Below are positions 7,374 through 62,817 of a DNA stretch of 64,000 nt, piece after piece. Position numbers and translations under genes: made by a program. The notes beneath the pieces are model-generated. The model did no database searches. It was not told where the DNA came from and saw nothing but the letters and a program-made list of their open reading frames with translations. This DNA is from Comamonadaceae bacterium (GTDB lineage: Bacteria > Pseudomonadota > Gammaproteobacteria > Burkholderiales > Burkholderiaceae_C), in contig JAJTEW010000008.1 in assembly GCA_021299875.1 (NCBI GenBank), forward strand, positions 310,001 to 374,000, written 5' to 3'. Position 1 is the first letter of the stretch. Each line of letters opens with the position of its first letter.

Positions 7374-7796
7374 TCAGTTGGCGTAGCGTCGCTCTGACTG
7401 GGTCTGGTTGAGCAAACTGGGCAAGGTTTGCCAAGCTTGAGCGATGGACTGGATCAGGCTTTGTACTTCGTCCAGTACCTCCAAGTCATTGTAGGCGTTG
7501 ACATGGAACAAGCGGCGGGTCACGTAGGCATACAACTCGTTGAGATTCTGAGCCAACTCCCCGCCACGCTCAAAATCAAGTGCACCTTGCAAAACCACCA
7601 CGATGCGCCCCGCGCGAGACAATGCTTTGGATTTTTCTTCAATGGCATGGTTTTGAATATGCCCTTTTGCAGAGGACAGGCTTTCGTTCAAACCATCAAA
7701 AAGCATTTGGATCAGTTGAATGTTGTCCGCTGTGGCAACGCCTGTCACAACTTGAACAGAACCGTAACTGTCAGCTACCTTGGAATATGCACGCAT
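7374..7796 (-). CDS. fliS: flagellin export chaperone FliS
   Basis: 140-residue helical cytosolic chaperone that binds the C-terminal D0 helix of flagellin and delivers it to the export gate. The family's features are present: an N-terminal aromatic segment with Tyr residues (MRAYSKVADSYG), a long helix around MLFDGLNESL, and the ERGGELAQNLNELYAYV segment (about 85-102) characteristic of FliS. A sigma-28-type site sits 34 bases upstream, so it is separated in control from the fliA operon and expressed late with flagellin, although its strand and position suggest the same ancestral cluster. Confidence 0.95.
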   Translation of the reverse strand: MRAYSKVADSYGSVQVVTGVATADNIQLIQMLFDGLNESLSSAKGHIQNHAIEEKSKALSRAGRIVVVLQGALDFERGGELAQNLNELYAYVTRRLFHVNAYNDLEVLDEVQSLIQSIAQAWQTLPSLLNQTQSERRYAN

Positions 7797-9093: not shown

Positions 9094-9810
9094 TTATGAG
9101 ATTTGCAGATTTTGCCGCAATTTTTTAACAACGGAAGAAAGAATTTGACTGATCCGGGACTCACTGACGCCTAAAACCTCTCCAATTTCCTTCAGGTTCA
9201 ACTCCTCGACGTAGTAAAGCGACATGACCAAGCGCTCACGCTCGGGCAACTCATCAATGGCCGCCACAACAGCCTCCATGAACTCCGCTTCCTCGACCAT
9301 GACTTCCGGCTGCATGGCGCTGTCTGCGGGCATGCTCATGACCTCATCGGTCACGACTTCCATGGAAAACGTCTCAAACCGCTTGGCTTGACCGCGTTCG
9401 CGGTGAAACTCTTCGATCTCCTTGCCCATGAACAAAGCCAGCTCGGCTTGGGTTGGGGCGCGGCCCAACTCAGCAGCCAGCACATGAACCGCCTCGTTCT
9501 CGCTTTTGTTGAATGCAACGGCCGATCGGGGCAAGAAAGACTGCCGCCTGACTTCGTCCAAAATGGCGCCACGAACCCTGCTCAGGGCAAAGTGCTCAAA
9601 TTCAAAACCCTTGGTCGGATCAAATGACCGAGCCGCTTCGATCAATCCCACCATGCCGACCTGCACCAATTCATCCAGTTCCATGAACGGTGGAAGTCGG
9701 GCTTTCAGGTGCACAGCCACCCGCTTGACCATGGCCATGTGCCCAAGAATCAGGGACTCGTGGCTGTTTTCAGCCTGTTCATAGTGAGAGATGGTATGGG
9801 CCACAGTCAA
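9094..9810 (-). CDS. fliA: RNA polymerase sigma factor FliA (sigma-28)
   Basis: 238-residue alternative sigma factor for late flagellar genes. Region 2 (MVKRVAVHLKARLPPFMELDELVQVGMVGLIEA, positions about 27-60) binds core and the -10 element. Region 4 ends with LNLKEIGEVLGVSESRISQI, the -35-binding helix-turn-helix. It is held inactive by FlgM, encoded at 33872-34174. Its start overlaps flhG by ATGA, indicating coupling. Its target sites are numerous in this window. Confidence 0.97.
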   Translation of the reverse strand: MTVAHTISHYEQAENSHESLILGHMAMVKRVAVHLKARLPPFMELDELVQVGMVGLIEAARSFDPTKGFEFEHFALSRVRGAILDEVRRQSFLPRSAVAFNKSENEAVHVLAAELGRAPTQAELALFMGKEIEEFHRERGQAKRFETFSMEVVTDEVMSMPADSAMQPEVMVEEAEFMEAVVAAIDELPERERLVMSLYYVEELNLKEIGEVLGVSESRISQILSSVVKKLRQNLQIS

Positions 9811-12126: not shown

Positions 12127-14244
12127 TCAAGCCTTGGTCGCTGAGGGGTTATTTCGGGGGTCGGCATGAACGGTGTTGATCACCTTGACGGGCTGATCAT
12201 CCGGTATTTCGCTGTAAGACAGCACCGTCAAATCGCTCACCCGATACCGAACGGCCTTGGACATCCAGGGTCGAATGGCCGGTGAGACCACCAAAACGGC
12301 TGGGAGACCCAGCTCCTCGGTGGTGCGTGTGCTGTCGCGCAATGCGGCGAACAAACTCTCTGCCAAAGTCGGCTCCAACACCATGCCAGCCGAACCATTG
12401 TTTTGTTGCAAGACATTGTGCAAAAGCTGCTCCAACTGGGGGTCAAGCGTCAAGACCGACAAGGTGTCTCGGGTCTCCAACAGACCCTGAACAATCATCC
12501 GACCCATCTTGGGGCGAATCAACTGGGCCAACTGCTCGGGGTCTTGGGTTCGACCACTGACCTCGGTCAAGGCCTCGACCACACTGCGCATGTCACGAAT
12601 GGGCACAGACTCTTGCAAAAGACTTTGAAGTGTTCGGGTGACCACACCCAGAGACAATTTACCTGGCACCAACTCTTCCACCAATTTAGGCGATTTCACG
12701 GCCAACTTGTCCAGCAACTTTTGTGCTTCATCGTGGCTGAGCAATTCAGAAGCATTCTCACGCAAAACTTTGTTCATGTGGGTGGCGATGGCCGTGCTCG
12801 GATCCACCACGGTGTATCCCAGTGCCCGGGCCTGATCGCGCCAGGCCGGCTCTATCCAGACAGCTTCTAGACCAAACGCGGGCTCTTTCGTCGCCTGCCC
12901 CTCGACCTTGCCGTACACCTTGCCGGGGTTGATGGCCAGCTCCCGGCCCACTTTGACCTCGCCACGACCGCGCACCACACCGTTGAGGACGATGTGGTAA
13001 GCGTCGGGCTCTAAATTCAAAGCATCCCGAATGCGAACGGGCTGCACCAAAAATCCCAGCTCGGCTGACAATTTTTTGCGCACACCCTTCACGCGGGTCA
13101 TCAACTGACCGCCCGACTCCACGTTGACCAAAGGGATCAATCCATAGCCAATTTCAAGTCCGATCAAATCGACCTGTTCCACATCGTCCCAATCCAGCTC
13201 TTTCGGGCCTTGATTGAGTGCAGTAGTTGGCTCGGCGGCATCCTGATCCAAGAGCATTTGCTTGCGCATCACCATGAATCCCACCCCCGCGGTGGCCGCT
13301 GCCAAAGTCAAAAAGACCAGGTGAGGCATCCCTGGAACCAAACCCATCAGCATCAAAATACCCGCAGAAATGAACAAGGCGGGCACATTCGACAGCTGAT
13401 TGCTGGCTTGTTCGGTCATGGACTCGGATGTCGTCACCCGCGTCACGATGATCGCCGTGGCCAGCGACATGAACAAGGCCGGGATTTGTGCCACCAGACC
13501 ATCACCGATGGTCAGCAAAACATAAATACGGGTGGCTTCACCTACAGGCAGGTCGTGTTGGCCTATGCCAATCGCCAAGCCACCCACAATGTTGATGATC
13601 AAAATCAACAAGCCCGCCAAAGCGTCACCGCTGACAAACTTGGAGGCACCATCCATCGAGCCAAAAAAGTCAGATTCTTGCGCCAATTCTTCCCGGCGCT
13701 TTTTGGCGGTTTCCTGGTCGATCACACCCGCGTTCAAGTCCGCATCGATCGACATTTGCTTGCCGGGCATCGCATCCAGGGTGAATCGGGCGTTGACCTC
13801 TGACACGCGGCCGGCACCTTTGGTCACGACAAAAAAGTTGACAATCATCAAAATGATAAAAATGATGAAGCCAACCACATAGTTGCCGCCAATCACAAAC
13901 TCACCGAAAGCCGCAATCACCTTACCGGCCGACTCTGGGCCCTCATGACCACTGACCAACACCACCCGGGTGGAGGCCACATTCAAAGCCAAACGCAGCA
14001 TGGTGGCAAACAGCAGCACGGACGGAAAGGATGAGAATTCCAATGGCTTGCGCGTACCAATTGCAATCATGATGACGACCAAGCCAATCATGATGTTGAA
14101 AGTGAACAAAATGTCCAACAGCAGCGGAGGTAAGGGCACCACCAACATGGCCATGATCAACAAGACCAAAGTCGGCAATCCCAATCCAGCCAAATTAAAG
14201 CTGGAGAGGTTCTGCCGGATCGCTGACAGGGTCAAAGTGTTCAT
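12127..14244 (-). CDS. flhA: flagellar export gate protein FlhA
   Basis: 705-residue FHIPEP-family integral membrane protein forming the nonameric export-gate ring. Eight or so N-terminal membrane segments (first near LPTLVLLIMAMLVVPLPPLL) are followed by the FHIPEP loop (KPLEFSSFPSVLLFATMLRL, an SFPSVLL variant) and a cytoplasmic domain that docks chaperone-substrate complexes. The frame continues upstream to 14430, but the family N-terminus fits the ATG at 14242-14244 (MNTLTLSAI). A consensus sigma-54 site at 14297-14312 supports this start with a leader of about 42 nt. First gene of flhA-flhF-flhG-fliA. Confidence 0.96.
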   Translation of the reverse strand: MNTLTLSAIRQNLSSFNLAGLGLPTLVLLIMAMLVVPLPPLLLDILFTFNIMIGLVVIMIAIGTRKPLEFSSFPSVLLFATMLRLALNVASTRVVLVSGHEGPESAGKVIAAFGEFVIGGNYVVGFIIFIILMIVNFFVVTKGAGRVSEVNARFTLDAMPGKQMSIDADLNAGVIDQETAKKRREELAQESDFFGSMDGASKFVSGDALAGLLILIINIVGGLAIGIGQHDLPVGEATRIYVLLTIGDGLVAQIPALFMSLATAIIVTRVTTSESMTEQASNQLSNVPALFISAGILMLMGLVPGMPHLVFLTLAAATAGVGFMVMRKQMLLDQDAAEPTTALNQGPKELDWDDVEQVDLIGLEIGYGLIPLVNVESGGQLMTRVKGVRKKLSAELGFLVQPVRIRDALNLEPDAYHIVLNGVVRGRGEVKVGRELAINPGKVYGKVEGQATKEPAFGLEAVWIEPAWRDQARALGYTVVDPSTAIATHMNKVLRENASELLSHDEAQKLLDKLAVKSPKLVEELVPGKLSLGVVTRTLQSLLQESVPIRDMRSVVEALTEVSGRTQDPEQLAQLIRPKMGRMIVQGLLETRDTLSVLTLDPQLEQLLHNVLQQNNGSAGMVLEPTLAESLFAALRDSTRTTEELGLPAVLVVSPAIRPWMSKAVRYRVSDLTVLSYSEIPDDQPVKVINTVHADPRNNPSATKA

Positions 14245-14296
14245 GAAGTGGTGAAATGAAACAGGGCCATGGGGTGTGGGCTTTTCAACACCTTCA

Positions 14297-14312
14297 AGCA
14301 AATCCCGTGCCA
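14297..14312 (-). promoter_or_regulatory. sigma-54 promoter for the flhA operon
   Basis: Minus strand reads TGGCACG-GGAT-TTGCT, an exact match to the -24/-12 consensus with GG-N10-GC spacing. Predicted start near 14286. Confidence 0.88.
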
Positions 14313-14360
14313 AACCCCATTGGTGAGATCTTGGAATTGTTGACATGCATCTCACAAAAC

Positions 14361-14376
14361 TGGTGCGCAAATTGCT
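14361..14376 (+). promoter_or_regulatory. sigma-54 promoter for the fliK-flhB operon
   Basis: TGGTGCG-CAAA-TTGCT on the plus strand, with exact GG-N10-GC spacing and a full -12 TTGCT. It diverges from the flhA promoter 48 bases away, so one activator-bound region could serve both operons. Confidence 0.72.
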
Positions 14377-14467
14377 CTGATAGACAAGAAGGTGCTCATC
14401 GGCAATGGTTTGCCGCTGCCCCAACATCACCGTCCCACCCTAACCCACCCGTTGAAGCGTGAAGCCC

Positions 14468-29462: not shown

Positions 29463-29489
29463 TCAAGTCAGTCTCGGTGATGTCGATAC
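29463..29489 (+). promoter_or_regulatory. sigma-28 (FliA) promoter for the flgP-flgT operon
   Basis: TCAAGTCA, 11 bases, GTCGATAC. Predicted start near 29498, leaving a leader of about 58 nt. Confidence 0.7.
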
Positions 29490-29555
29490 CAAGCATGTGC
29501 CATGCGCAACCGTGCAGCACGGGTTGTGCACCCTATGGGCTTCTGGAGATTCAAA

Positions 29556-33871: not shown

Positions 33872-34174
33872 TCAACCTTTGATCATCTTTTCGATGGCCA
33901 CAAAATTCTCAGCGATGCGTCGGGAGTCAACCGGGTACAAGCCCTGCTGAATGGCCAATTTGATGGATTCAACTTTGGCACGGTCAAACTCAGGCTCTTG
34001 CATGGCTTTTTGGGCCACTTCGCTCAACTGAAGCTGGTCCGTTTGCATGCCTGCCGGTTTGACCGCCGTTTCAGACATCGCATCCGATGGGCGCTCCGAC
34101 ACCTTGGCCGCTGCAGGGCGGCTGGGCGTGTCCATTTGGGCAATCCGGCGGAAACTGGATATGGGATCGGTCAT
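33872..34174 (-). CDS. flgM: anti-sigma-28 factor FlgM
   Basis: 100-residue, mostly disordered inhibitor of FliA, exported once the hook is complete. The C-terminal FliA-binding helix is recognisable: KVESIKLAIQQGLYPVDSRR and AENFVAIEKMIKG. A sigma-28 site 54 bases upstream provides autoregulation. Together with flgN it forms a two-gene unit. Confidence 0.95.
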   Translation of the reverse strand: MTDPISSFRRIAQMDTPSRPAAAKVSERPSDAMSETAVKPAGMQTDQLQLSEVAQKAMQEPEFDRAKVESIKLAIQQGLYPVDSRRIAENFVAIEKMIKG

Positions 34175-50411: not shown

Positions 50412-50438
50412 TAAAGATTTCGGATGGGCAGACGAATC
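50412..50438 (+). promoter_or_regulatory. sigma-28 (FliA) promoter for fliC
   Basis: TAAAGATT, 11 bases, GACGAATC. Predicted start near 50447 gives a leader of about 97 nt, within which AGCAGG and CCTGCT (about 50480-50516) could pair. Confidence 0.75.
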
Positions 50439-50543: not shown

Positions 50544-51407
50544 ATGACAGTCATTAACACCAACGTGAAATCCCTTGTGGCTCAGAACGCACTGACGGTG
50601 AACAACCGCAGCCTGAGCAAAGCCATGGAGCAGTTATCCACTGGCAAACGCATCAACAGCGCTGCAGACGATGCCGCTGGCCTGGCCATCAGCAACAAAA
50701 TGACCGCTCAGATCAAAGGTCTGAATCAGGCCATCCGCAACGCCAATGACGGCATCTCTTTGCTGCAAACGGCTGAAGGTGCCACCAAAGAAGTCACCAA
50801 CATGCTTCAGCGCATGCGTGAATTGGCTGTTCAAGCTGCCAACGACACCTATTCCGGCGATGACCGTACCGCTCTGAATGATGAAGCAATTCAATTGATG
50901 GAGGAAATCGACCGCATCAACGAGAACACCATTTGGAACGGCATGATGGTTTTTGATGGCACATCGATTGGCGATGGCTCTGGAACCATCAACCTTTTTG
51001 CAGGTACTGGTACCACCGAAACAGTCGGCAGCGATGCGATTGAAGTGTCAATCAGCGGTCTGGGCTCGGATTCTCTCGGAGTCGATGCAGTCGATATCAG
51101 CGGCATTGATCTAGAAACTGACAGCGCCTCGGCTACATCGGCGATTGCGACGCTGGACGAAGCGATCGTCTCGATTGGCAAAGACCGCGCTAATTACGGC
51201 GCCAAGATCAACCGCTTGACCTCGGCGGCTGACAACATGTCCAACGTGTCTTTGAACATCTCCGCTTCACGCAGCCGCATTGAAGATGCCGACTACGCTG
51301 CTGCGACGACCGAACTGGCCCGCACGCAGATCATCTCGCAAGCGGCCACCGCCATGTTGGCCCAAGCCAACCAAGCAGGTCAGAGCGTGCTGTCACTGCT
51401 GCGCTGA
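50544..51407 (+). CDS. fliC: flagellin FliC (major candidate)
   Basis: 287-residue short flagellin with complete D0/D1 and almost no D2/D3. N-terminus [20 protein letters not shown], core [21 protein letters not shown]-terminus [20 protein letters not shown]. The 40-odd central residues ([20 protein letters not shown]) replace the variable domain. Start ATG 50544 has TAGGAG seven bases upstream. Own sigma-28 promoter and own terminator, so probably the main filament subunit. Confidence 0.95.
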
Positions 51408-51430
51408 TCGCTGAACTCTCGGCTTTAAAG

Positions 51431-51455
51431 ACCCCCGATTTACCGGGGGTTTTTC
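51431..51455 (+). terminator. intrinsic terminator after fliC
   Basis: ACCCCCG/CGGGGGT stem with loop ATTTAC and a T tract. It isolates fliC from the giant-protein gene, whose sigma-28 promoter begins 16 bases later. Confidence 0.85.
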
Positions 51456-51470
51456 TTTTTGTGCGGTGAC

Positions 51471-51497
51471 TAAAGTTGTGCGCGCTCACGCCGATTC
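51471..51497 (+). promoter_or_regulatory. sigma-28 (FliA) promoter for the giant repeat gene
   Basis: TAAAGTTG, 11 bases, GCCGATTC. It matches TAAAGTTT-N11-GCCGATAA at 13 of 16 positions, the strongest sigma-28 site in the window. Predicted start near 51506, leader of about 50 nt. Confidence 0.88.
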
Positions 51498-51554
51498 TTG
51501 GATCAAGCCCAATCATATTCATGGCGCATGTCGCGCCCTCAGGTGGAGAAAATC

Positions 51555-54500
51555 ATGCTGATTTCGTCGATCAATACCAGCGCGTACACCTACGCACCCG
51601 CTACCGTCAACACCCTCGACAGCACAGGAAAACTCTTCGCAGCCAAAGCCCCCAGCCCCACGCTGCTGGGTGACAACAATGGCATGGCCACGGCGGATGT
51701 GTTCATTTACTCCCGCATGGGTATGACAAGCGGTGACAGCGCGCCCAGCCGCGGTGTCGTGCTCGAAAACGCCGACGGGTCCTATTTCAAACTCGATCTC
51801 ACAGGCAACGAAGAAGTCAACCTGGTAGCCAAGGGCGGCAACCTGCAGTTGTTTGTGTATCGCCCGGACAGCACCTCGGCAGAAAAATTCGTTTTCGATA
51901 GAAAAGGCGTCTTCTCCAGCACGAGCACACTTGACGTAGAAAGTTTTTCCGCTGCTGAAGTGGCGACACGCCGTGACTTAGACGGCAATGGTTCGGTCGG
52001 TGCGAAATTGCTGACCACCCAAACACTGGCGGCCAATGATCCGATCACAACCGGCGTCTCCAAGGCCACCGGAGGCGTCTTCAACGTCAACGTCATGGGG
52101 CAAGACATTTATGTGGTCGGCAGCCGTGTAGACCGGCTCAAGCGCATCGACGCCAGCACCATCACCTTGAAAAACGGCGATGGTACTTTCTGGAAACCCC
52201 CAGCAGAAATACAAACTTTGCGCGCGGTGTCAACCACAGGGATGAGTGGTACCCGCTGGGACATCTACGGCACCGCCTCTGAGGACACCACTGGAGATGG
52301 TTTTGCCGTCACAACCAAATTTTCGTTCGGAACCAACAACCAGCTCTCTAGCACATCCCAACTCAGTGCCGAAGAAGTCATTGCAGCCGAAGTCGACGCC
52401 AAAAAAGATCTCAATGTGGATGGGGCCTACGGCTTGAAGATCACCAGCACGATCGATTCAGCGGGTGGGCTGGTCAAAGGCAAATTAGCAGGCCAGGATG
52501 TGCTGCTTGCCAAAGTGGCCAGCACCGACACCACCGGAGGACGGGCAGTCAGCCTGAACGACTTCATGCTCGATGTGGATGGCAGCGCATGGAAATTGCC
52601 AGCAGCCGCCACAACCGCAACTTATACGATCCAATCCATCGTGAAAAACAGCGGTGCAAGCAGCACTGCCAGCGTCTACGCGACCAAGAGCGGTGGCAAT
52701 GATGCACTGCGTTTCGACTTCACCCTGAACGCCGACAACCGCTATGAAATCGATGAAACCACGGCCGCCGGCGTGACCGTGACGGCCCAGGAAATGGCAG
52801 CGGCCGAACGAACACAAAAGCGTGACCTCAACGGTGATTCGAAATTCGGTGCCACGATCGACAGTCTGGAAGACAAACAAACCAAACTCTACAAAGCCAC
52901 CATGATGGGCAAAGAGTTTTATCTGGCAGGGGATCTCGACAACAGCGCCCGAGTGACTGCCCGCTCAGCCAGTGCGGCCCAAAGCTTGGGCGGTGCGCTG
53001 CTCAACACAGACGGCAAGGCCTGGGAAGCCAAGGTAGGCAGTACCACCTACACGGTCAATGCCATGATCAACAGAGTGATCACACCAGGCAACCGAGAAT
53101 ACGATGTCTATGCCAAGTCTGGCACTGATGTGCGTAAATTTGTTTTCAAAGAAAACGCTGATGGCAATTTCGCGATCAAAGCCGACAAGCCCAATGGTGA
53201 AGTTCTCAATGACCCGATCGCTTTGGCCGCTCTGGAAAAATCCAGCAAACGTGACCTGAATGGCGACACGAAATTCGGCGCCACGATCGACACGCAAATT
53301 GATACCGCAGTTGGCCTTTACAAGGCGTCCATTGGCACCGATATCTTTTATCTGGCGGGTCAAGACCCCGTTACCACCGAGACACGCACAACAGGATTGA
53401 CGGGCGCATTGGCACAGGATCTCAGTGGTGCTCTGCTGAACGAAGACGGCACTGCCTGGGCATTGCCTTCGGCTGCCAGCGCCTACGCCTTGAAATCCAT
53501 CGTTGACACCACATCTGGGGGCTCAACCAGTTACAGCATTTTCGCTACCAAAAACAATGGTGATGATGTTCTGCGCTTTGATTTCGAAGAGAACGCTGCC
53601 GGGAATTTGGAGGTCAGCAGTGACAGCCGTGCAGGGGTGAAAGTCACAGCGAGTGACATGGCGGCAGCTGAAGACTTGCACAACCGGGACTTGAACCAAG
53701 ACGACTTGTATGGCGCTGACATCAGCTCCACCATCATCGACCGCACAGCCGGGCTGTACACCGCGAGTTTGATGGGTCAGGACTTCTACCTGGCTGGACA
53801 TGATTCGGGTGGAGCTCTGCGCAAGACGGCGACCAACGGCACCGACGCCAAAGCATTGACCGGTGTTCTGCTCAATGCGGACGGCTCTGCCTGGGACGTG
53901 AAGACCGGCTATGTCGCCTCCTCGCTTGTCAAAGAATCAGCCACCGAATATGCTTTGTATGCCTACAAGACAGGTGACAAATCCGATGTGATCCGTTTTG
54001 ATTTCGAAGATGACGGCGACGGCAACTTTGTGGTCAGCGATGACTCCATTCCTGGGATTGCCATGTCGTCAGACGCCATGGCACTGACCGAAGCGAATCT
54101 GAAACGCGACCTGAACAGCGACGGTGCCTTTGGCGTCCAGCTAAGCAACACACTCGACGCAACTGGCGGACTTTACAAAGTTTCCGCACTTGGCGGAAGT
54201 TTCCTTCTGGCTGGCGATATCAACCAGCAGGCCTCGGCCAACGCGCCACTGGATCTGAGCAAAGCCTTGCTGGACAACGATGACAACGCCTGGCTGCCAG
54301 AAAATGTGGCCGATGTCACCGCCAACAAGCTGAGCCTGGTACCTACCAACACGGCAGGCACATTCACCATCTATGTCGAAAACGACCCTGCTGCTGATTC
54401 TGATTTCTCCGCCTACGATTTCGTGGGCTACAAACAAAGTGGCAACCGCAAAGACCTGAGCACCGAAGACATTGCAAATATTGAGGAAACCAAAGGTCGC

Positions 54501-57500
54501 GACATTTCTGGCGATGAGAAGTACGGCGCCGTCATCACCGATGGCATCGACTTGGTTGGAGGCCTCTACAAAGGAAGTCTGGGCAGTCATGTCGATGTGT
54601 CTTTCAAGGCAGGCCCTGGCCTCGCTTTGGGCAGCCTGGTGGCTGGCGATGCACTCGACTTCAGCAGCGCCCTCAAGACAGCAAGCGGTTACTGGAAAGC
54701 AGACACCGGTTTCACAGCCCAGACCGGATTCTCGGATGGCACGGATTTCGTGGTGATTGCTACCAACTCGAGTAAAGAGGTACGTCGCTACACATTTGAC
54801 ACCACCAAGGATAACCAGATCGATTTGGCCAAATCGGGTCTCATGACCGACCTGGAAGTCGCAGACCTGGAAAAAACCGAAGGCCGCGACCTCAACAAAG
54901 ACAAGGTTATTTCGGTGCGTGTGGACACCACCGCACTGGACTCGGTCGGTGGTCTGTTCAAAGGCAACAATGGCCAAAACGACTACATCATCGTGTCGCC
55001 CACAGCAGCCGGTGTGACGGATTTGTCGACCGCTCTGCTGAATACCGATGGCACGCGCTGGAACCCGGGCAGCTTCGACAGGCTGGTCCTGAACGAGAAA
55101 ACCGACGGTGGAGCCACCACGGGTTACGAGGTCTATGCCAAAGCGACCAGTGGCAGTGCTACCACCTACAAGCGCTACAGCTTTGACACCGACTTCAAGC
55201 TCACCAGCACGAGTGCCGCGCTGGGTGATCTTGAAGTGGGTCTGGCCGAAGTCAGTATTGGTAATGGTGGTCGAGACATCAATGGCGACAACGCCATTGG
55301 GGCCAAAGTCACCGAGGTTTTGCACAGAAACAGCGGGCTCTACAAGGGCGAGGTCAATGACACCGACATGGTTCTGCTGGCACACAACAGCAGCGGTGTC
55401 GCCAACACCGCTGTAGCCGGCGCCAGCGCCATTGAAGGCCGTGCTTTGTACGGTTTGGACGGCAAAACCCCTTGGGATCCAAGCGGCTTCACCCTGAAAA
55501 AAGCCACTTTCAACCTGGAAGGAGGCAGTGTCTCGTCCATCTATGTGTTTGCAGAGAAAGCCGCTGACAACACCTTCCACCGATTCATGTTCACAGCAGA
55601 CCATGTGCTGGTGAAGTCAGAAGCCGTCTCGAGCGAACAAGCTGCGGCTTCCGCGATGGCCAACAACCCTGCGGGCAGCTACGTAGACACCGAGGGTGGA
55701 CTGTTCAAAGCGACCGTCCTCGGTCAGGATTTTTATGTGGTCGGCGACACCGATGGGACCGAGGATCCCGTTCCGGACTTGTCCAAGGCCATGTTTGACG
55801 GCGACGGCAATGTCTGGAAACCAGGCACCGACTACAAGGTCGGCGGCATGATCACCAACGAGGATGGCAGCGGCGATCCGGTGACTTACGACGTCTATAC
55901 CTTCAAGATGGGCACTGGTGCCAACGCCAATCAGGTCAATTCAGTGCAAAAGAGCACCTGGGATGCCGACATGAACTTCATGGGCACCACCGAAGCCGAT
56001 CCCGCCAAACTGGCAGAACTCGAAAAAACCAAGCAACGCGACCTCTCGGGCGACAGCGTGGTGGGCTTCAAAGTCAAAACCCTCGACACTGCACTTGGCT
56101 ACAAAGGTGTCACCGGCGCCACCATGGTCAACGGGGCTACCTACCTGCTGGCAGGCCAAGACCTGTCGACAGGCTCTTCGACCACGGCGCTGGGGCTCAA
56201 CAATGTGCTGCTGAACGCCGAGGGCTCGGCCCCATGGATGCCCTCTGGAACAGAGAAAGTCAAATTTGTGGATGAGCGCACGGCAAGTGATGCAACGCGC
56301 TACGTTTACAGCATCGATGACTCTTCAGCCGTGGAGACCGCCAAGCGTTACGAATTCAACAAGACCACTGGCAAACTGGTGGGCAGCGGCGAGGCCATCA
56401 GTCTTTTCGAACTGGCGAAGCTCGAAGAGACCAAGAACACCGACATCAACGACGACAACTACGTGGGTGCCGTGACCGTTTCGGTGTACCGAGACGACAA
56501 CGCAGACCCTAGCCCATCCTACGGCACCGACCTGTTGAGAGCGGACTTTGGAGGTGCGTCATTCCTCATCGTCAATGAAGCCACCACGGGTGCAGGTAAG
56601 TTGACCATGAGCGGTGCACTTCTCAACCAGGACGGCACGGCATGGACTTTGCCCGCCAGCTTCACGCTGAAAGGCGTTTACCAGCAGGATGGCCCCACGG
56701 ATGGTTTGACCTCAAAGCCACTGGAACTCTACGGCTTGGACGCCACTGGTGCCATCAAGCAGTATCGCTTTGCCGCGAATGTGGACCAGTTTGGCGCTCG
56801 CACGACGGGCTACACCTTGATGGACGCCAAAGTCAACGCGGACCTCAAGGTCAACCCCATTCGAGGCAGCGCCTTGGCTGCAACCGAATTGAGTGCAGAG
56901 CTCGATCTGAATGGCGACGGAGGCATCGGATACCTCAAAGGCTCCACGGTGGTCCGTGCAGACTCTGGCAATGCCGCCAATAGCTGGACTTTGGGCAAGG
57001 CCAGTGTCAGCAATGGCAGCGGCGCGGCTGCAGATGAGATCTATGTGGTCAGCGAGGACTTTGAGGCCACATCTTCAATTTCAAAAAGCAGCGACACCAT
57101 CAGCGACAACACCGTGGCGAGCGGCGCACTTTGGGCCACAGGGGGCGACACCTACTGGAAACCGGATGCCGGCTACACGGTCAAATCCGTCCTCAGCAGT
57201 GCCGCCGGCCAGGTCGAGGTCTGGGCGCAGGGAACTACATCGGACGGATCGAAGGTCTACCAACAGTATGTGTTTGACAGCTCAGGGGGTAAGTGGGAGG
57301 CTTCCGCATCCAGTCTGACGGCTGACGCTGACTACGATGGTGATACCACGATGGACAGCTTGAGCTCCGCCACGATGCTCAGCGAAGAAGTCACGGCCAC
57401 TCGTGACTTGAATGGCGATGGCGCCGTGGGCCTCAAAGTGATGGACCGCATCAGTGGAACAGGCACCAACGCATACGAAGCTGTGGTGGACGGCGTGTCC

Positions 57501-57737
57501 TACTACGTTGTCGGCGACGACACAACCGTCGCCACAGGCACTGCGAGTGCTCCGGCAGATCCGTCAACACTGCATATCCTGAAAAACAGTGACGACACCC
57601 TTTGGGCCCCCACCGGCGCTGTCACAGACATTCGCCTGGCCACGGCTGCAGACATAACAACGGAGGCCGATGCAGCTTACACGGTCGTTGACGGTGGAAC
57701 AGATGTGTATTTCGACTCAAGTTTTAAGAAGCTGTGA
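51555..57737 (+). CDS. giant tandem-module exoprotein with Ca-loop-like motifs, FliA-controlled
   Basis: 2060 residues from ATG 51555, with GGAG six bases upstream. There is no signal peptide or membrane span. After an N-terminal segment (SSINTSAYTY) the protein is about fourteen modules of 120-165 residues. A full module has GLYKA...GQDFYLAG, then ALLNxDGxAW, then a YxVYATKSG-like strand, RFDF, and ends in a loop such as DLNGDTKFG, DLNSDGAFG or DLNGDGAVG. That loop (D-x-N-x-D-G) resembles EF-hand/dockerin and tryptophan-rich C-terminal repeat loops and may bind calcium. Modules around residues 280-870 are the most alike. Probably a secreted surface or filament-associated protein; export route unknown (type I or flagellar). 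Confidence 0.85.
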   Translation: MLISSINTSAYTYAPATVNTLDSTGKLFAAKAPSPTLLGDNNGMATADVFIYSRMGMTSGDSAPSRGVVLENADGSYFKLDLTGNEEVNLVAKGGNLQLFVYRPDSTSAEKFVFDRKGVFSSTSTLDVESFSAAEVATRRDLDGNGSVGAKLLTTQTLAANDPITTGVSKATGGVFNVNVMGQDIYVVGSRVDRLKRIDASTITLKNGDGTFWKPPAEIQTLRAVSTTGMSGTRWDIYGTASEDTTGDGFAVTTKFSFGTNNQLSSTSQLSAEEVIAAEVDAKKDLNVDGAYGLKITSTIDSAGGLVKGKLAGQDVLLAKVASTDTTGGRAVSLNDFMLDVDGSAWKLPAAATTATYTIQSIVKNSGASSTASVYATKSGGNDALRFDFTLNADNRYEIDETTAAGVTVTAQEMAAAERTQKRDLNGDSKFGATIDSLEDKQTKLYKATMMGKEFYLAGDLDNSARVTARSASAAQSLGGALLNTDGKAWEAKVGSTTYTVNAMINRVITPGNREYDVYAKSGTDVRKFVFKENADGNFAIKADKPNGEVLNDPIALAALEKSSKRDLNGDTKFGATIDTQIDTAVGLYKASIGTDIFYLAGQDPVTTETRTTGLTGALAQDLSGALLNEDGTAWALPSAASAYALKSIVDTTSGGSTSYSIFATKNNGDDVLRFDFEENAAGNLEVSSDSRAGVKVTASDMAAAEDLHNRDLNQDDLYGADISSTIIDRTAGLYTASLMGQDFYLAGHDSGGALRKTATNGTDAKALTGVLLNADGSAWDVKTGYVASSLVKESATEYALYAYKTGDKSDVIRFDFEDDGDGNFVVSDDSIPGIAMSSDAMALTEANLKRDLNSDGAFGVQLSNTLDATGGLYKVSALGGSFLLAGDINQQASANAPLDLSKALLDNDDNAWLPENVADVTANKLSLVPTNTAGTFTIYVENDPAADSDFSAYDFVGYKQSGNRKDLSTEDIANIEETKGRDISGDEKYGAVITDGIDLVGGLYKGSLGSHVDVSFKAGPGLALGSLVAGDALDFSSALKTASGYWKADTGFTAQTGFSDGTDFVVIATNSSKEVRRYTFDTTKDNQIDLAKSGLMTDLEVADLEKTEGRDLNKDKVISVRVDTTALDSVGGLFKGNNGQNDYIIVSPTAAGVTDLSTALLNTDGTRWNPGSFDRLVLNEKTDGGATTGYEVYAKATSGSATTYKRYSFDTDFKLTSTSAALGDLEVGLAEVSIGNGGRDINGDNAIGAKVTEVLHRNSGLYKGEVNDTDMVLLAHNSSGVANTAVAGASAIEGRALYGLDGKTPWDPSGFTLKKATFNLEGGSVSSIYVFAEKAADNTFHRFMFTADHVLVKSEAVSSEQAAASAMANNPAGSYVDTEGGLFKATVLGQDFYVVGDTDGTEDPVPDLSKAMFDGDGNVWKPGTDYKVGGMITNEDGSGDPVTYDVYTFKMGTGANANQVNSVQKSTWDADMNFMGTTEADPAKLAELEKTKQRDLSGDSVVGFKVKTLDTALGYKGVTGATMVNGATYLLAGQDLSTGSSTTALGLNNVLLNAEGSAPWMPSGTEKVKFVDERTASDATRYVYSIDDSSAVETAKRYEFNKTTGKLVGSGEAISLFELAKLEETKNTDINDDNYVGAVTVSVYRDDNADPSPSYGTDLLRADFGGASFLIVNEATTGAGKLTMSGALLNQDGTAWTLPASFTLKGVYQQDGPTDGLTSKPLELYGLDATGAIKQYRFAANVDQFGARTTGYTLMDAKVNADLKVNPIRGSALAATELSAELDLNGDGGIGYLKGSTVVRADSGNAANSWTLGKASVSNGSGAAADEIYVVSEDFEATSSISKSSDTISDNTVASGALWATGGDTYWKPDAGYTVKSVLSSAAGQVEVWAQGTTSDGSKVYQQYVFDSSGGKWEASASSLTADADYDGDTTMDSLSSATMLSEEVTATRDLNGDGAVGLKVMDRISGTGTNAYEAVVDGVSYYVVGDDTTVATGTASAPADPSTLHILKNSDDTLWAPTGAVTDIRLATAADITTEADAAYTVVDGGTDVYFDSSFKKL
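51971..57440 (+). repeat. tandem module array inside the giant protein gene
   Basis: Loop-coding motifs begin near 51974, 52406, 52824, 53252, 53690, 54108, 54501, 54888, 55275, 56041, 56441, 56905 and 57409, with a degenerate unit near 55680. Spacing is about 390-430 bases for most units, stretching to about 500 at the end. Copies at 52819-52866 and 53247-53294 share AAATTCGG(T/C)GCCACGATCGAC. Confidence 0.8.
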
Positions 57738-57775
57738 CGATTCATAAAACATAGATTAAAAAACGAGGTCATGTC

Positions 57776-60451
57776 ATGTCCACTTTGACGACAGGTATCG
57801 GGGGTTTTAACCCCGCTGCAGGAACAAATACCGGCAGCAACCAAGTCTTTGGCAATCCGCCCAAGGTTTACACCGTCGATCAGGCCAAAATCCGCATTGC
57901 GGGAGGGGACGATATCCGCCGGATGGTGATCGAGGACACCGCTGAAAACATCACCAAGGGCTTTGACGACCTCAAAGGCTGGGCGGGCGACAAAATCCTC
58001 AAAGGCATCAAGGTGACCGACAACGCCGAAGTCAGTCTGAAGGTGGCCGATCTCAACGGCACGCGCTCGGAAGTGACGAACGTCCTGAAACGTCTGGAAA
58101 AAGCCACCGTCAAGGTGGAAGACATCGCATCAGAAATTGAAGGAGGCCTGGATGAACTCAAGCTCTACCAGCGGCGCCTTGATGGCATGGCGGTGGTGGC
58201 TGACCAAGATGGCGATGCCAGCACCGCGGGCGACAGAGAGGCTCCCCTGCTGTCGCTGACAGCCGCCGAATTCAAAGGTGCGCGCAAGGTGTTGGACAAA
58301 CTCGAAGGCGCACTGGTTGAAGTTGAGTTGTCAGGCAATTACAACCAATATCAGATCAAGGCCGGAAAGAACGGTGCCATTTCTGCCAACGGTCTTGACA
58401 AATTTTCAGGTGAAGCCCATTTCCTGAAATTCGCGGGTGATGGTCAGCGCTTTGTGGCCAGTTCGGGTGATTCCCGAATCGATGCATTGCTCGAAGTGGG
58501 CAAGAGCAACATGTGGAGTCCATCTGCGGATACAAACAATAAACTGGCTGTCAAAAGCTCTGTGGAAAACGCTGCGGATGCAGACTGGCAACAAATCATG
58601 CCCGGTGTGTTTTCCCTCGATGAGACTCTGGATGCGACCGACCCGATCGCACTGACCTACGGCTTCCACCCCAACGGCACCAATGTCCCTGCCGGAGACA
58701 AAAAATTCTTTGCCCCTTTGGATGAAGCGCAAAAAGCCGTGGTGCGAGATGCCTTCAGTTACCTGGGCGGACTGATGAACATCAAGTTCGCGGAGGAAAA
58801 CCTCGACGCAGCCAAGACCAGTTTCCAGTTTGGCACCAACGAGCAAGCCAGCAGTGCCGCATATGCTTACATGCCCATAGCCACCACGGCTGCCCCAAGT
58901 CAGATCATGCTGGCCAACAACCAGGCGTCCAACGACTTCGCCAGCTTCTTGACAGGCGATGACGACAGTGACACCACCAATGGCTATCAGATTAAAACAT
59001 CTGACCTCATAAACTTGCGGAAAAGCTACGGTTGGACAACGGTGGTGCACGAAATCGGCCACGCATTGGGACTCAAGCACCCTGGTGACTACAACGCCGG
59101 CGGCGGTGGCGCTTCGCCACCTTATCTGCCCAAAATTCTCGATTCCAAGCTGTGGTCAGTGATGTCTTACAACAGCATACCCACCGCTTTCTCCACAGAT
59201 CCCACCAACACCTCAGGTTCACGGCAAACCCCGCAGACCATGATGGCCTACGACATCGCGGCCCTGCAGTTCTTGTATGGCAAAGCCAACAGCAGCGAAA
59301 GTGCACAGACGAGTGTGGTCTCAGCCATCTCCGACAACGTGATTGCAGGTGACAAAGTCAAATTGACCATCGACAGTACCGATTACGAATACACCGTAGC
59401 TTCGGGTGATTCAAGTGCCGATGTGGTGAGCGAGTTGGCTGATCTGGTCAATGCCGGTACGCTGGCCAAAGCCACCGTACTCAAAGCCAGCCAAGGCAGC
59501 GGTAACAATCTTCGCGAATACAGTTATCTGAGCCTGACGGGTGAGAAAACCGGTGCCACGGAGGGTGCCTTTACCGCCTCAACGACCATTACGGACGTGC
59601 GATCCGCCAACGTGTCCGGTGGCGCTGTCAGCATCACAACACCTTCCAGCGCTACCGTTAAACAAGTCAATGAAATGGCCCTGGTTGCCGACTTTGTGGC
59701 AGGCGATAAAATTGATCTGACCATCAGCGGTAAAACCTTCAGCTACACCGTCGCTGATGGCGACAACAGTGCAGACATCGCAACCGGCCTGAAAACCCTG
59801 ATCAATTCGGGTTCAAGCACGGCTGTCGCCGACGACACCGCAGCTGATGGCTCTTTGAAAATCACTGCCAAAGCGTTCAATGTCTCGCTCTCGGTCACTA
59901 GCACCTTGACACAACGGGCCATCACAGGGGGTGCAGTGACGACGCCGCTTGCAGCGTCTGACGCTCGCTTGGCAAGTTTCCAAACGCTGGACTTTTCAGA
60001 CGCCTGGAACGGACTTCAAACGGTTTGGACACCGACCGATGCCGATGGCACTGGCGGCACATTTGATGCCAGCGCCGTGACGACCCGGACCATCATTGAC
60101 ATGCGCCCGGGTGCATTCAGCTCCGTCAACCGGTACAACAACATTGGTTTGTCGTTTGGCAGCCAATACAGCAGCGTTCTGGGCGGGACAAGCACGGACG
60201 TGATTTACGCCGGACTCTATTCCGCCAGCATCACTGGCGGGGCTGGATCCGATACGGTGTATCTGGCCGGCAAAGCTTCAGACTATGGGCTCACTGCCAA
60301 TGCCAATGGCGAAGCCACGACGAATCCAGCCAGCGTGACACGCAAGGTCAATGGCGAGGACATCACCTTGACTCTGACCACTGTTGAAAAGCTCAAGTTC
60401 TACGACGACACGCGCGTTGGCAGCTTGCATGGTGTTGACAGTTTTGCCTGA
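57776..60451 (+). CDS. M10/serralysin-type zinc metalloprotease with inserted hook-like modules
   Basis: 891 residues, no signal peptide. A helical N-terminal part (1-200) is followed by a metalloprotease domain with zinc site HEIGHALGLKH (425-435) and Met-turn SVMSYNS (Met463), then DIAALQFLYGKA as in serralysins. The serralysin domain is next interrupted (about 510-740) by two beta modules with AGDKVKLTID...YTVASGDSSAD and AGDKIDLTIS...YTVADGDNSAD. After them the serralysin-like TRTIIDMRPGAFSSV resumes, with two RTX-like nonamers (GGTSTDVIY, GGAGSDTVY). SD GAGG is seven bases upstream. No terminator follows the giant gene, so it is probably co-transcribed. Possible substrates: the giant protein, flagellin or environmental protein. 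Confidence 0.88.
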   Translation: MSTLTTGIGGFNPAAGTNTGSNQVFGNPPKVYTVDQAKIRIAGGDDIRRMVIEDTAENITKGFDDLKGWAGDKILKGIKVTDNAEVSLKVADLNGTRSEVTNVLKRLEKATVKVEDIASEIEGGLDELKLYQRRLDGMAVVADQDGDASTAGDREAPLLSLTAAEFKGARKVLDKLEGALVEVELSGNYNQYQIKAGKNGAISANGLDKFSGEAHFLKFAGDGQRFVASSGDSRIDALLEVGKSNMWSPSADTNNKLAVKSSVENAADADWQQIMPGVFSLDETLDATDPIALTYGFHPNGTNVPAGDKKFFAPLDEAQKAVVRDAFSYLGGLMNIKFAEENLDAAKTSFQFGTNEQASSAAYAYMPIATTAAPSQIMLANNQASNDFASFLTGDDDSDTTNGYQIKTSDLINLRKSYGWTTVVHEIGHALGLKHPGDYNAGGGGASPPYLPKILDSKLWSVMSYNSIPTAFSTDPTNTSGSRQTPQTMMAYDIAALQFLYGKANSSESAQTSVVSAISDNVIAGDKVKLTIDSTDYEYTVASGDSSADVVSELADLVNAGTLAKATVLKASQGSGNNLREYSYLSLTGEKTGATEGAFTASTTITDVRSANVSGGAVSITTPSSATVKQVNEMALVADFVAGDKIDLTISGKTFSYTVADGDNSADIATGLKTLINSGSSTAVADDTAADGSLKITAKAFNVSLSVTSTLTQRAITGGAVTTPLAASDARLASFQTLDFSDAWNGLQTVWTPTDADGTGGTFDASAVTTRTIIDMRPGAFSSVNRYNNIGLSFGSQYSSVLGGTSTDVIYAGLYSASITGGAGSDTVYLAGKASDYGLTANANGEATTNPASVTRKVNGEDITLTLTTVEKLKFYDDTRVGSLHGVDSFA

Positions 60452-60453
60452 TC

Positions 60454-61275
60454 ATGCTCATCCTCGGCCACAATCTGCAAGCGCTGCGCTCGCTCCATGC
60501 CAACCAGATGGCATCGCAGTCGCGCACGGAGCTCAGTCGGGAATTGACCACCGGAAAGCGCGTCGACCAAGCGGCCGACGATGTGGCGGGGATGGCCATG
60601 TCATCGAAGTTTTCGGCGCAAATTCGGGGCTACGATCAAGCCAGCCGCAATGCTCACGATGGTATCTCCCTGTTGCAAACTGCTGACGCGGCTGCAGAAA
60701 ACATGCACAACGGGCTGATGCGCATGCGCGAACTCGCAGTCCAGGCCGCCAACGACACCTACTCGGCCGATGACCGTCAAGCCATGTCGCTCGAATTTCA
60801 GGAACTGGAAGCCGAAATCGGCAAACAGCTCTCTCACACCTATTGGAACCACCAAAATCTGATGAACGGTACCGCAGGTGATGCGGGGCAGATGACGTTT
60901 GTCGTAGGAGCGCTAGGCGAGCACACGGCCAGCATTGAATTAAGTGACCTGAGCGCTACGGCATTGTCTGATTTGAGAAACATCGAAGATCCAGCCGATG
61001 CGATCTCAACGCTTGCTTCCATTGATGAATCAATAGGTGTGCTCAACGCGGAGCGTGGCAAGTGGGCCGCCACCATCAACCGGCTCGAACATGCGGCCAG
61101 CAACGGCAATCGGGCTGTGGTGGACCAAACCTCTTCGATGAGCACCTTCATGGACAGCGATTACGCTCAATCCACTGCAGAATTGGCTCGGTGGATGATC
61201 CTTCAACAGTCCAGTCAAGCCATGCTGTCCCAAGCCAATCAGCGCCCTCGTATTGTGCTGGCCCTTTTGCGCTAA
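60454..61275 (+). CDS. divergent flagellin-like protein coupled to the protease
   Basis: 273 residues with flagellin D0/D1 only. The N-terminus is atypical (MLILGHNLQALRSLHANQMA) but the core ELTTGKRVDQAADDVAGMAM and [20 protein letters not shown] is clear, and the C-terminus is QSSQAMLSQANQRPRIVLAL. Tryptophans and histidines appear where other flagellins have small residues (SHTYWNHQNLMNG). Its ATG is two bases after the protease stop and no SD is visible, so it is translated with the protease. Possibly a minor or specialised filament component. Confidence 0.9.
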   Translation: MLILGHNLQALRSLHANQMASQSRTELSRELTTGKRVDQAADDVAGMAMSSKFSAQIRGYDQASRNAHDGISLLQTADAAAENMHNGLMRMRELAVQAANDTYSADDRQAMSLEFQELEAEIGKQLSHTYWNHQNLMNGTAGDAGQMTFVVGALGEHTASIELSDLSATALSDLRNIEDPADAISTLASIDESIGVLNAERGKWAATINRLEHAASNGNRAVVDQTSSMSTFMDSDYAQSTAELARWMILQQSSQAMLSQANQRPRIVLALLR

Positions 61276-61301
61276 TCCAGCCCCCTCCTCCCAAGCCATA
61301 C

Positions 61302-61326
61302 AACCCGCCTTTGCGCGGGTTTTTTC
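61302..61326 (+). terminator. intrinsic terminator after the divergent flagellin
   Basis: AACCCGC/GCGGGTT stem with loop CTTTGC and six T. Ends the giant-protein/protease/flagellin unit. Confidence 0.85.
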
Positions 61327-61390: not shown

Positions 61391-61444
61391 TTTTCGTAAA
61401 AACGAACTTTCGGCAGTTTTTTGCCGCTTGCTTTAAGGACACCC

Positions 61445-61900
61445 ATGATTGCCATCGAACAACCCGCAACGACCCATTCAAGCTCTGCATTCATGGGTCC
61501 GCTGCGTGACGAGCATTTTGACCTGACACATCAGGCAGAAATCATGCATTTGGTCGAGCTGGATCAACTCGCGGCAGCCAGGTCGCTGGCCCAAAAAACT
61601 GCTGAACAATGTCCCAACGATGAGATCAGCTGGGTGATGCTGTCTCTGGTTTGCGAAGTTCAGCAGGATTGGTGTGCTGCACGAACGGCCTTGGAGCGTT
61701 TACGGGATTTGCAGGGACACAACATCCCAGCCTCTGTCCAATTGCACTACATCCGTGTTCTTCATTGCCTGGGAGAAGACATGATCGCCAAAGCCGTACT
61801 TCAGGCTGCAATGACACGATGGCCCGACGATCAGATGTTGCGGCAAGAACAACAAATCGCTCTGCACAGAGCACAACCTCGCGTTGCACGAGCCGGTTGA
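61445..61900 (+). CDS. TPR-like protein upstream of a flagellin gene
   Basis: 151 residues from ATG 61445, with AAGGA five bases upstream. Paired helices with tetratricopeptide-type spacing (LDQLAAARSLAQKTAEQCPN, then WVMLSLVCEVQQDWCAARTA, then IRVLHCLGEDMIAKAVLQAA) suggest a scaffold or chaperone. No signal peptide. It is preceded by a sigma-54 site and followed after 83 bases by a flagellin gene with no promoter I can recognise, so the two may be co-transcribed. A flagellin-specific helper role is inference. Confidence 0.75.
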   Translation: MIAIEQPATTHSSSAFMGPLRDEHFDLTHQAEIMHLVELDQLAAARSLAQKTAEQCPNDEISWVMLSLVCEVQQDWCAARTALERLRDLQGHNIPASVQLHYIRVLHCLGEDMIAKAVLQAAMTRWPDDQMLRQEQQIALHRAQPRVARAG

Positions 61901-61983: not shown

Positions 61984-62817
61984 ATGTCAGTCATCAACAC
62001 CAATATAAAGTCACTTATTTCACAGCAAGCCTTGAACAAAAATGGGCGTGCACTGAGCGCGGCGATGGAACAGCTGTCTACGGGCAAACGCATCAACAGC
62101 GCAGCAGATGATGCCGCGGGACTGGCCATCAGCAACCGCATGACGGCTCAGATAAGAGGACTGGACCAAGCGGTTCGCAATGCGAACGATGGTATTTCCA
62201 TGCTCCAGACAGCCGAAGGAGCATTGTCTGAAGTGACCAATATGCTGCAACGCATACGCGAGTTATCAGTCCAAGCGGCCAACGACACTTACTCAGACCC
62301 TGATCGGGAGTCGCTGCAACTTGAAGTGACCGAGCTGATTGATGAAATCGACCGCATCGGCAACAACACCATGTGGAACGGCATGTATGTTTTTGCAGCT
62401 GATATTGGTTCTGATGGGGACTTCTCTATACAAGTGGGCGTGGGCGACTCTGTCGATAGCGTGATTGAAGGCACGCTCTACGAAATGGATGCAGGCGAGC
62501 TGGGCGTGGATACATTGGATATTTCTACCGCTACAGATGCCCAATCAGCGATGTTGAGCATAGATTTGGCAATCAGCACCATCGACAATTGGCGTGCAGA
62601 ATACGGCGCAAAAATCAACCGATTGACCTATGCATCAGACAATATTTCTAATGTACTGTTGAACACCACCGAGTCGCGAAGCCGGATTCTGGACACAGAT
62701 TACGCCAAGGCTTCCAGCGAACTCTCTCGGACACAAATCATTCAGCAAGCCGCCACTGCCGTGCTGGCCCAGGCCAACACCGATCAACAGACTGTGCTTA
62801 AGTTGCTGCAAGGATAA
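61984..62817 (+). CDS. flagellin, third copy
   Basis: 277 residues, close paralogue of the fliC product at both ends: [40 protein letters not shown], and C-terminal AVLAQANTDQQTVLKLLQG. The centre (IGSDGDFSIQVGVGDSVDSV) differs. Third base and AT use differ from fliC, so the duplication is not recent. No sigma-28 site with correct spacing was found upstream, so transcription may come from the sigma-54 site at 61375. Confidence 0.93.
   Translation: MSVINTNIKSLISQQALNKNGRALSAAMEQLSTGKRINSAADDAAGLAISNRMTAQIRGLDQAVRNANDGISMLQTAEGALSEVTNMLQRIRELSVQAANDTYSDPDRESLQLEVTELIDEIDRIGNNTMWNGMYVFAADIGSDGDFSIQVGVGDSVDSVIEGTLYEMDAGELGVDTLDISTATDAQSAMLSIDLAISTIDNWRAEYGAKINRLTYASDNISNVLLNTTESRSRILDTDYAKASSELSRTQIIQQAATAVLAQANTDQQTVLKLLQG

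Follow-up and report, generated by a model that had tools for sequence, protein, structure and literature searches.

The window analysed here, a 64-kb stretch of DNA from a Comamonadaceae bacterium, carries a large flagellar gene cluster in which the genes of a giant repeat protein (P0001), a serralysin-like M10 metalloprotease (P0002) and a divergent flagellin (P0003) follow the main flagellin gene on the same strand. The reading that we put forward, at a probability of about 0.45, is that these genes lie in an exchangeable cargo slot of the late flagellar regulon, and that the giant and the protease would be exported by the flagellum. As judged from promoter-like sites, it is strongly supported that both are members of a predicted FliA regulon and are timed by FliA. 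The question of the export route is near even, and the predicted passage through the flagellar apparatus is slightly favoured over a type I system acting in trans. The locus is composed as follows.

50544..51407, plus strand: main flagellin (fliC type), with a sigma-28-like site at 50412
51427..51464, plus strand: terminator-like hairpin 3' of fliC, parting fliC from the giant gene
51471..51497, plus strand: sigma-28 (FliA) promoter-like site of the giant gene, TAAAGTTGTGCGCGCTCACGCCGATTC, 19.9 bits
51555..57737, plus strand: orphan giant repeat protein P0001, 2060 residues
57717..57743, plus strand: second sigma-28 promoter-like site, TCAAGTTTTAAGAAGCTGTGACGATTC, 21.8 bits, overlapping the end of the giant open reading frame (ORF)
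57776..60451, plus strand: serralysin-like M10 metalloprotease P0002, 891 residues
60454..61275, plus strand: divergent slot flagellin P0003, 273 residues
61302..61326, plus strand: intrinsic terminator-like hairpin with T-run
61984..62817, plus strand: third flagellin, followed by a sigma-54 activator gene

The coordinates that an earlier note on this DNA had given hold, as does the distance of two bases between the protease stop and the P0003 ATG. Its statement that there is no terminator until 61302 stands save for one weak match at 55712, inside the giant ORF, which is the single match on the plus strand between the terminator-like sites at 51427 and 61302. Since terminator-like matches in the region are as frequent as in shuffled sequence (16 versus a mean of 15.6), both terminators rest on their stems and T-runs.

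FliA-type promoter-like sites

Two matrices were used for scoring. The strict sigma-28 matrix was built from 28 of 29 flagellin and flaG sites of relatives (scoring at least 12.5; L036 omitted), while the looser one, for which 72 of 77 upstream regions served as training set, takes in some weak sites that are probably false. By the strict matrix seven positions of the window exceed 18 bits and the next one reaches 15.3, while the best value in 12 Markov-shuffled windows of 64 kb is 17.9. The site at 51471, recognised earlier as the promoter of the giant gene, stands above this background, and the protease site is the fourth best of the window. The other high-scoring sites are the following.

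7856, minus strand: before fliS, 25.8 bits
34255, minus strand: before the FlgM-like gene, 23.2 bits
49886: before flaG, 23.2 bits
50412: before fliC, 18.4 bits
48179: before fliD, 18.2 bits

The looser matrix gives 19.1 for the giant and 17.1 for the protease, whereas the highest value among 241 control upstream regions is 12.35; P0003 has no sigma-28 site of its own (5.5 with this matrix). The earlier view of a single FliA-timed unit is strongly supported by sequence as regards timing, as the sites match those of late flagellar genes and a FliA gene is present, but not as regards one transcript, because the protease has its own site. This separate strong promoter-like site at 57717 was missed at first reading. 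In wording it answers to the separate strong promoter that the earlier note had named as speaking against its view, but not in sense, since it is of the same sigma class. It makes two overlapping units possible, i.e. one with the giant and one with the protease and the flagellin. From the arrangement of the sites, two sigma-28 units with possible read-through are probable in place of one, and P0003 is probably co-transcribed with the protease.

The flagellar genes around the locus were assigned by Pfam and NCBIfam matches together with gene order, except where stated otherwise.

7374-7796: FliS
9094-9810, minus strand: FliA-type sigma factor, with sigma-70 regions 2, 3 and 4
12127-14430: FlhA
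20216: FlhB
33872-34174: FlgM-like gene, by inspection only
Elsewhere in the cluster: MotA, MotB, FlgD to FlgL, FliD, FlaG and fliC

Another sigma-28-like site (29463-29489, 15.3 bits, below the best shuffle) lies just before an ORF at 29502 that has a marginal match to an LPP20 lipoprotein, at the cut-off (25.9 bits).

The giant repeat protein and the protease

The preferred start of P0001 is the ATG at 51555, which has AGGTGGAG just upstream and gives 2060 residues; the alternative TTG at 51498 would give 2079. The protein contains no cysteine, has a net charge of -109 and is built of degenerate repeats of about 140 residues, ten of which are 24-44% identical to the reference repeat. A D[LI][NS]xD-like motif (D-x-N/S-x-D-like) is matched 13 times, at a spacing of 129-167 residues apart from one gap of 255. 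These matches agree with the earlier description of P0001 as a calcium-loop protein, calcium binding itself being putative. The C-terminus lies inside a repeat, and the last unit breaks off at the conserved F column.

No Pfam family matches P0001 at 0.001 (the best one, at a loose threshold, has 0.006), nor was there a PDB match of weight. Relatives were found in none of the 89 other genomes of the genus and in no plasmid, the repeat profile matched none of 398 other genomes of the family, and a scan of GTDB contigs was negative as well, within the limited sensitivity of the six short peptides on which it rests. By sequence comparison P0001 is an orphan. It has no match to PF20080 and is not one of the ALTTAQ giants found in relatives (see below); its own genome has no PF20080 match at all. 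The N-terminus MLISSIN resembles the MSLISSIS of flagellar ALTTAQ giants. We did not use this likeness as evidence, as it is short and was picked post hoc, and ALTTAQ proteins of other genera likewise begin in a repeat-like manner.

P0002 has the zinc motif HEIGHALGLKHPGDY (HExxHxxGxxH form, HEIGHALGLKHP) and the Met-turn SVMSY, both aligned to PDB 1srp. It matches PF00413 with 25.4 bits (cut-off 24) and stays below the cut-off of NCBIfam NF035945 (91 bits, cut-off 500). The N-terminal region of about 260 residues, for which no family was found, is followed by the catalytic domain (approximately 300-510), an insert of about 230 residues, a residual RTX roll and a short tail. The alignment to 1srp covers residues 403-511 in the catalytic domain and, more weakly, 742-836 in the roll, with the insert between them. 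P0002 has no cysteine, and it lacks the serralysin-type RTX roll with several GGxGxD motifs and a C-terminal tail: there is one GGxGxD, 65 residues from the end, and a VEKLxF motif 22 residues from the end. The latter distance is 34-224 residues in eight uncut RTX/M10 ORFs of relatives, a set defined by having the motif near the C-terminus (in the remaining ORFs VEKLxF is unplaceable or internal). The last GGxGxD is followed by at least 118 residues in the relatives' RTX/M10 ORFs, except in L061, a piece of a broken RTX gene of the own genome that ends 7 residues past the motif, and in L065 and L078, which are cut by contig ends.

A search for P0002 in 60 relatives gave matches in 12 genomes, the own one included. 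The 11 others are all from the same genus and partial, lying within query residues 307-527. Wide flanks were read for 11 loci from nine of these 11 genomes (G018 and G003 left out); they showed no flagellin by a simple motif, the M10 proteins there are mostly RTX proteins, and type I transporter genes were recognised in L076 only. No near-full-length relative appeared in the GTDB contig scan with its six short peptides, and coverage in plasmids was 38% at most. Conservation of the large genes away from flagellar loci, which according to the earlier note would speak against a flagellum-linked system, is not seen for the giant, as it has no relative; serralysin-like catalytic domains do occur elsewhere, in otherwise different proteins.

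A Sec-type signal peptide is absent from P0001 and P0002 by inspection and by hydropathy, in agreement with the earlier reading: the best mean hydropathy over 12 residues is 0.92 and 0.58 in the two large proteins, as against 2.25 in FlgI and 2.07 in FlgH.

The flagellin slot in relatives

Flagellin matches are present in 57 of the 90 genomes of the genus (own included), and 16 flagellin regions were fetched for comparison of the slot. P0003 falls into one clade with relatives' second flagellins, at a local support of 0.989. The space between the first and the second flagellin is filled differently in different genomes. Sugar or transferase genes stand there or just beyond in L036, L038, L039 and L051, as judged from the starts of the ORFs without a family search; they read like genes for nonulosonic acid or other sugars, and their predicted products probably serve flagellin glycosylation. 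In L037, L040, L041 and L042 ALTTAQ giants (PF20080) beside a GT41 glycosyltransferase take this place, within the slot or directly past it. The giant of L037 (1065 residues) ends 23 bp before the slot flagellin, a position akin to that of the protease in the window. A GT41 glycosyltransferase is absent from the window; many of the class A loci defined below have one. The best reading of these gene orders is that the slot between main and second flagellin is exchangeable within the genus.

A 159-residue protein with weak TPR matches is encoded at 61421-61900, between the second and the third flagellin, and ORFs of similar size occur at the equivalent place in several relatives; it is possibly a flagellin chaperone. 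Two more flagellins, of 868 and 468 residues, are encoded outside the window's cluster, on contig C15 of the own genome.

L066:732-3338, minus strand: far flagellin
L067:3330-4736, plus strand: far flagellin

ALTTAQ giants were found in 17 of the 90 genomes, the own genome not among them. Thirteen of these 17 genomes (all except G002, G009, G033 and G112) have a flagellin within some 14 kb of the giant on its contig. They were sorted by eye into two classes according to their neighbours. In class A (11 genomes) the giant lies in a flagellin island or next to a GT41 gene, with no type I gene adjoining it; G002, whose short contig has no flagellin, belongs here through its GT41 neighbour. Class B (6 genomes) has type I genes beside a giant; L146, whose 7.9 kb contain no type I gene, was placed here through its C-terminal domain and its genome. 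Before the first giant gene of class A a sigma-28-like site was found in all nine loci with a resolved start (13.6-19.6), while in the tandem pairs (L041, L149) the second gene is without one. Two class B giants have sites of 16.0 and 16.9. Four other ORFs of this class score 9.2-11.6, namely L145 and L159 (11.6, a value reached by one of 241 controls), L146 (9.6) and L148 (9.2), the last two in the range of the controls; L144 and L147, which lack a 5' end, were left out of the scoring. In L144 (G106), L154 (G110) and L156 (G109) an ALTTAQ giant, type I genes and a flagellin share one locus, and the giants of G109 and G110 there have sigma-28-like sites, so that type I cargo itself may be FliA-timed.

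It could be argued that the giant and the protease came into this variable island recently, are expressed late only because flagellar promoters happen to be there, and have no flagellar role. The orphan status of the giant, the missing near-full-length relative of the protease and the variation of the slot among relatives would all agree with such an origin. Against it stands that each of the two genes has a strong sigma-28-like site of its own and that unrelated giants of relatives are preceded by sites of this type too, which suggests selection for FliA timing. We consider a chance lodging of this kind improbable.

Export route and comparison with known systems

If the proteins are cargo of the late flagellar regulon, the question is how they leave the cell. 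To this end the C-termini of the ALTTAQ giants were compared. In class A, 11 protein ends from 10 genomes lie 5-23 residues beyond the last repeat (one further end, which runs into unreadable sequence, was dropped). In class B the end is reached in L144, L146 and L147 only, L145, L154, L156 and L159 being cut. These three ends, together with six from five genomes of other genera, extend 196-328 residues beyond the last repeat, and all nine share a C-terminal domain (every pair E <= 2e-42). A model of this domain found no match in six frames of the 15 class A loci (11 genomes) or of the window, nor on P0001, P0002 or 12 RTX/M10 proteins. Type I genes are found in 6 of 7 loci of class B and in none of the 15 of class A, a contrast that the class definitions largely dictate. 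Transporter genes of the C39-type ATP-binding cassette (ABC) are present in 6 of 6 class B genomes, compared to 3 of 11 class A genomes; this too follows in part from the definitions, because in five of the class B genomes they are the neighbours of the giant. In the family as a whole, ALTTAQ repeats occur in 88 of 399 genomes; in ten genomes of other genera, taken from the top scorers, the regions flanking the giant showed no flagellar gene and no type I transporter, and the giants themselves carry the C-terminal domain wherever the end was read.

Giants beside type I genes thus keep the domain and island giants without type I genes lack it, for which a switch of route to the flagellum would be a simple account. 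The end of P0001 inside a repeat and the short tail of P0002 fit this account, and the missing C-terminal domains give indirect support to a predicted link that goes beyond timing. One may go further and suppose that former type I giants were put under FliA control, lost the C-terminal domain and are now exported via the flagellum, and that the unrelated giant and the serralysin of the window took the same step; this fuller history appears rather unlikely to us.

The main competitor is that the two proteins are FliA-timed but secreted by a PrtD-type type I system encoded elsewhere, and that their place of action is the cell surface or the medium. Type I secretion is the classical route of serralysins, and the absence of cysteine together with calcium-loop-like motifs suits type I export equally well. 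The 64-kb window is free of type I genes and no C39-type ABC gene was found in the own genome, but the latter has three PrtD-type ABC genes over the cut-off, of which two lie on the contig of the window, about 96 kb upstream. At C4:260157-266022 (L060), some 44-50 kb before the start of the window, an RTX protein is encoded beside two tandem PrtD-type ABC genes, and by its gene content this would be the likeliest type I system in trans. Against this route speak the protease tail of 22 residues past its motif and its single GGxGxD. The ALTTAQ C-terminal domain is absent too, though it is equally absent from the 12 RTX/M10 proteins, hence this does not exclude type I export. Furthermore, six RTX/type I loci of the own genome have no comparable sigma-28 site (best 13.4). 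Taken together, secretion by a type I system is quite conceivable, if somewhat short of an even chance.

Several further observations weigh against flagellar export or against the promoter argument. Firstly, besides the own genome, 4 of 11 class A genomes have a PrtD-type ABC gene over the cut-off. (ABC matches of 300-395 bits were found in four more, G020, G072, G070 and G076; G015, G002 and G107 have none above 250 bits, a result that we left unused since these are drafts of 84, 84 and 94% completeness.) Secondly, the island giants of G106, G109 and G110 adjoin type I genes, those of G106 being of the PrtD type of the own genome, and by such loci flagellar timing does not need flagellar export. 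Thirdly, the connection of the C-terminal domain with type I export comes from two loci, L144 and L147, the only ones with domain and transporter together, in classes that had been sorted beforehand by type I neighbours, and the domain-bearing giants of other genera lack a type I transporter in the ten flanks sampled. As the giant has no relative, domain loss in P0001 has to be argued from other families. The weakest class A site, that of L143, reaches only 8.7 with the strict matrix. A genome-wide sigma-28 pattern, composed after the sites of the window were known, has 12 matches, 8 of them in the window, and a reversed control pattern has 17, more than the real one. Finally, a protein of 2060 residues would make a very large flagellar substrate. 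Variable regions of more than 1000 residues in flagellins are mentioned in an excerpt of PMC7643111. According to excerpts of PMC7911332, the channel of the flagellum has a width of about 2 nm and lets unfolded proteins through. The probabilities of the two routes were placed where they are because the type I link of the domain amounts to two loci and because the G106 transporter is of the PrtD type found in the own genome.

For the cargo slot with flagellar export, which we prefer, the following course of events can be envisaged. The genus would swap genes between the main and the divergent second flagellin, either sugar-type genes or giant repeat proteins; here the slot would have received the orphan 2060-residue protein and the serralysin-like protease, each behind its own FliA promoter-like site, with the second flagellin transcribed together with the protease. 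After hook completion FliA would switch on both genes together with flagellin, and both proteins would leave the cell unfolded, slightly more likely by the flagellar type III apparatus than by type I, and act outside the cell, at the filament or close to it. The giant might be a coat of the surface or the filament, perhaps a calcium-dependent one, and the protease might process the giant or digest surrounding protein; coating, remodelling, release or digestion had been suggested in the earlier note and would be candidate roles.

To our knowledge, non-motor proteins linked to the flagellar programme are known mainly as small effectors or flagellin-fused enzymes. If the proposed reading is true, a protease and a coat protein of 2060 residues, far above the usual substrate size, would be made and exported with the filament. 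A slot refillable with giants and, in this case, a protease, usually placed behind sigma-28-like sites, would imply that the flagellar programme serves environmental bacteria for dressing their surface or filament. If export does go through the flagellum, the upper size of what this apparatus can pass would be much higher as well. In addition, one repeat family with and without a C-terminal domain would be a natural experiment in the switching of secretion routes.

It is useful to compare the locus with known systems. In the compared systems, as far as the available portions of the sources go, no flagellin was found to be accompanied by both a giant repeat protein and a separately encoded serralysin-like protease. 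The term ALTTAQ was not found in the full text of the open-licence papers searched, nor were giants in flagellin islands among the matches listed. The flagellinolysins are proteolytic flagellins, with one characterised member from a freshwater bacterium (excerpts of PMC5595980 and PMC7643111). As in the window, a metalloprotease is part of the flagellar programme, but there the protease domain lies within the flagellin, whereas here a separate M10 serralysin-like protein is encoded beside it; P0002 has no flagellin domain and P0003 no protease domain, so that neither is a flagellinolysin. The Feds of Campylobacter are sigma-28-dependent, non-flagellar secreted proteins, a set of properties that is predicted from sequence for the proteins described here, and a screen of the Campylobacter flagellar secretome names a candidate secreted zinc metalloprotease of 26 kDa (both in excerpts of PMC5223770). 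The latter belongs to another protease family; dependence on the flagellum was measured in that system, while here it is deduced. YplA of Yersinia, a phospholipase exported by the flagellar apparatus and two other type III systems (excerpts of PMC8306008), is an enzyme that leaves by the route proposed here, but it is neither a giant repeat protein nor a serralysin. With the serralysins (M10; NF035945, PDB 1srp) P0002 shares the zinc motif, the Met-turn and a residual RTX roll, and it differs from them in the insert of about 230 residues, the N-terminal region of about 260 residues, the single GGxGxD, the shortened tail and the flagellar locus. The ALTTAQ giants (PF20080) resemble P0001 in being giant repeat proteins with no evident Sec signal that occupy the same slot and in many cases stand behind sigma-28-like sites, but their repeat is unrelated, and the GT41 gene is missing from the window.

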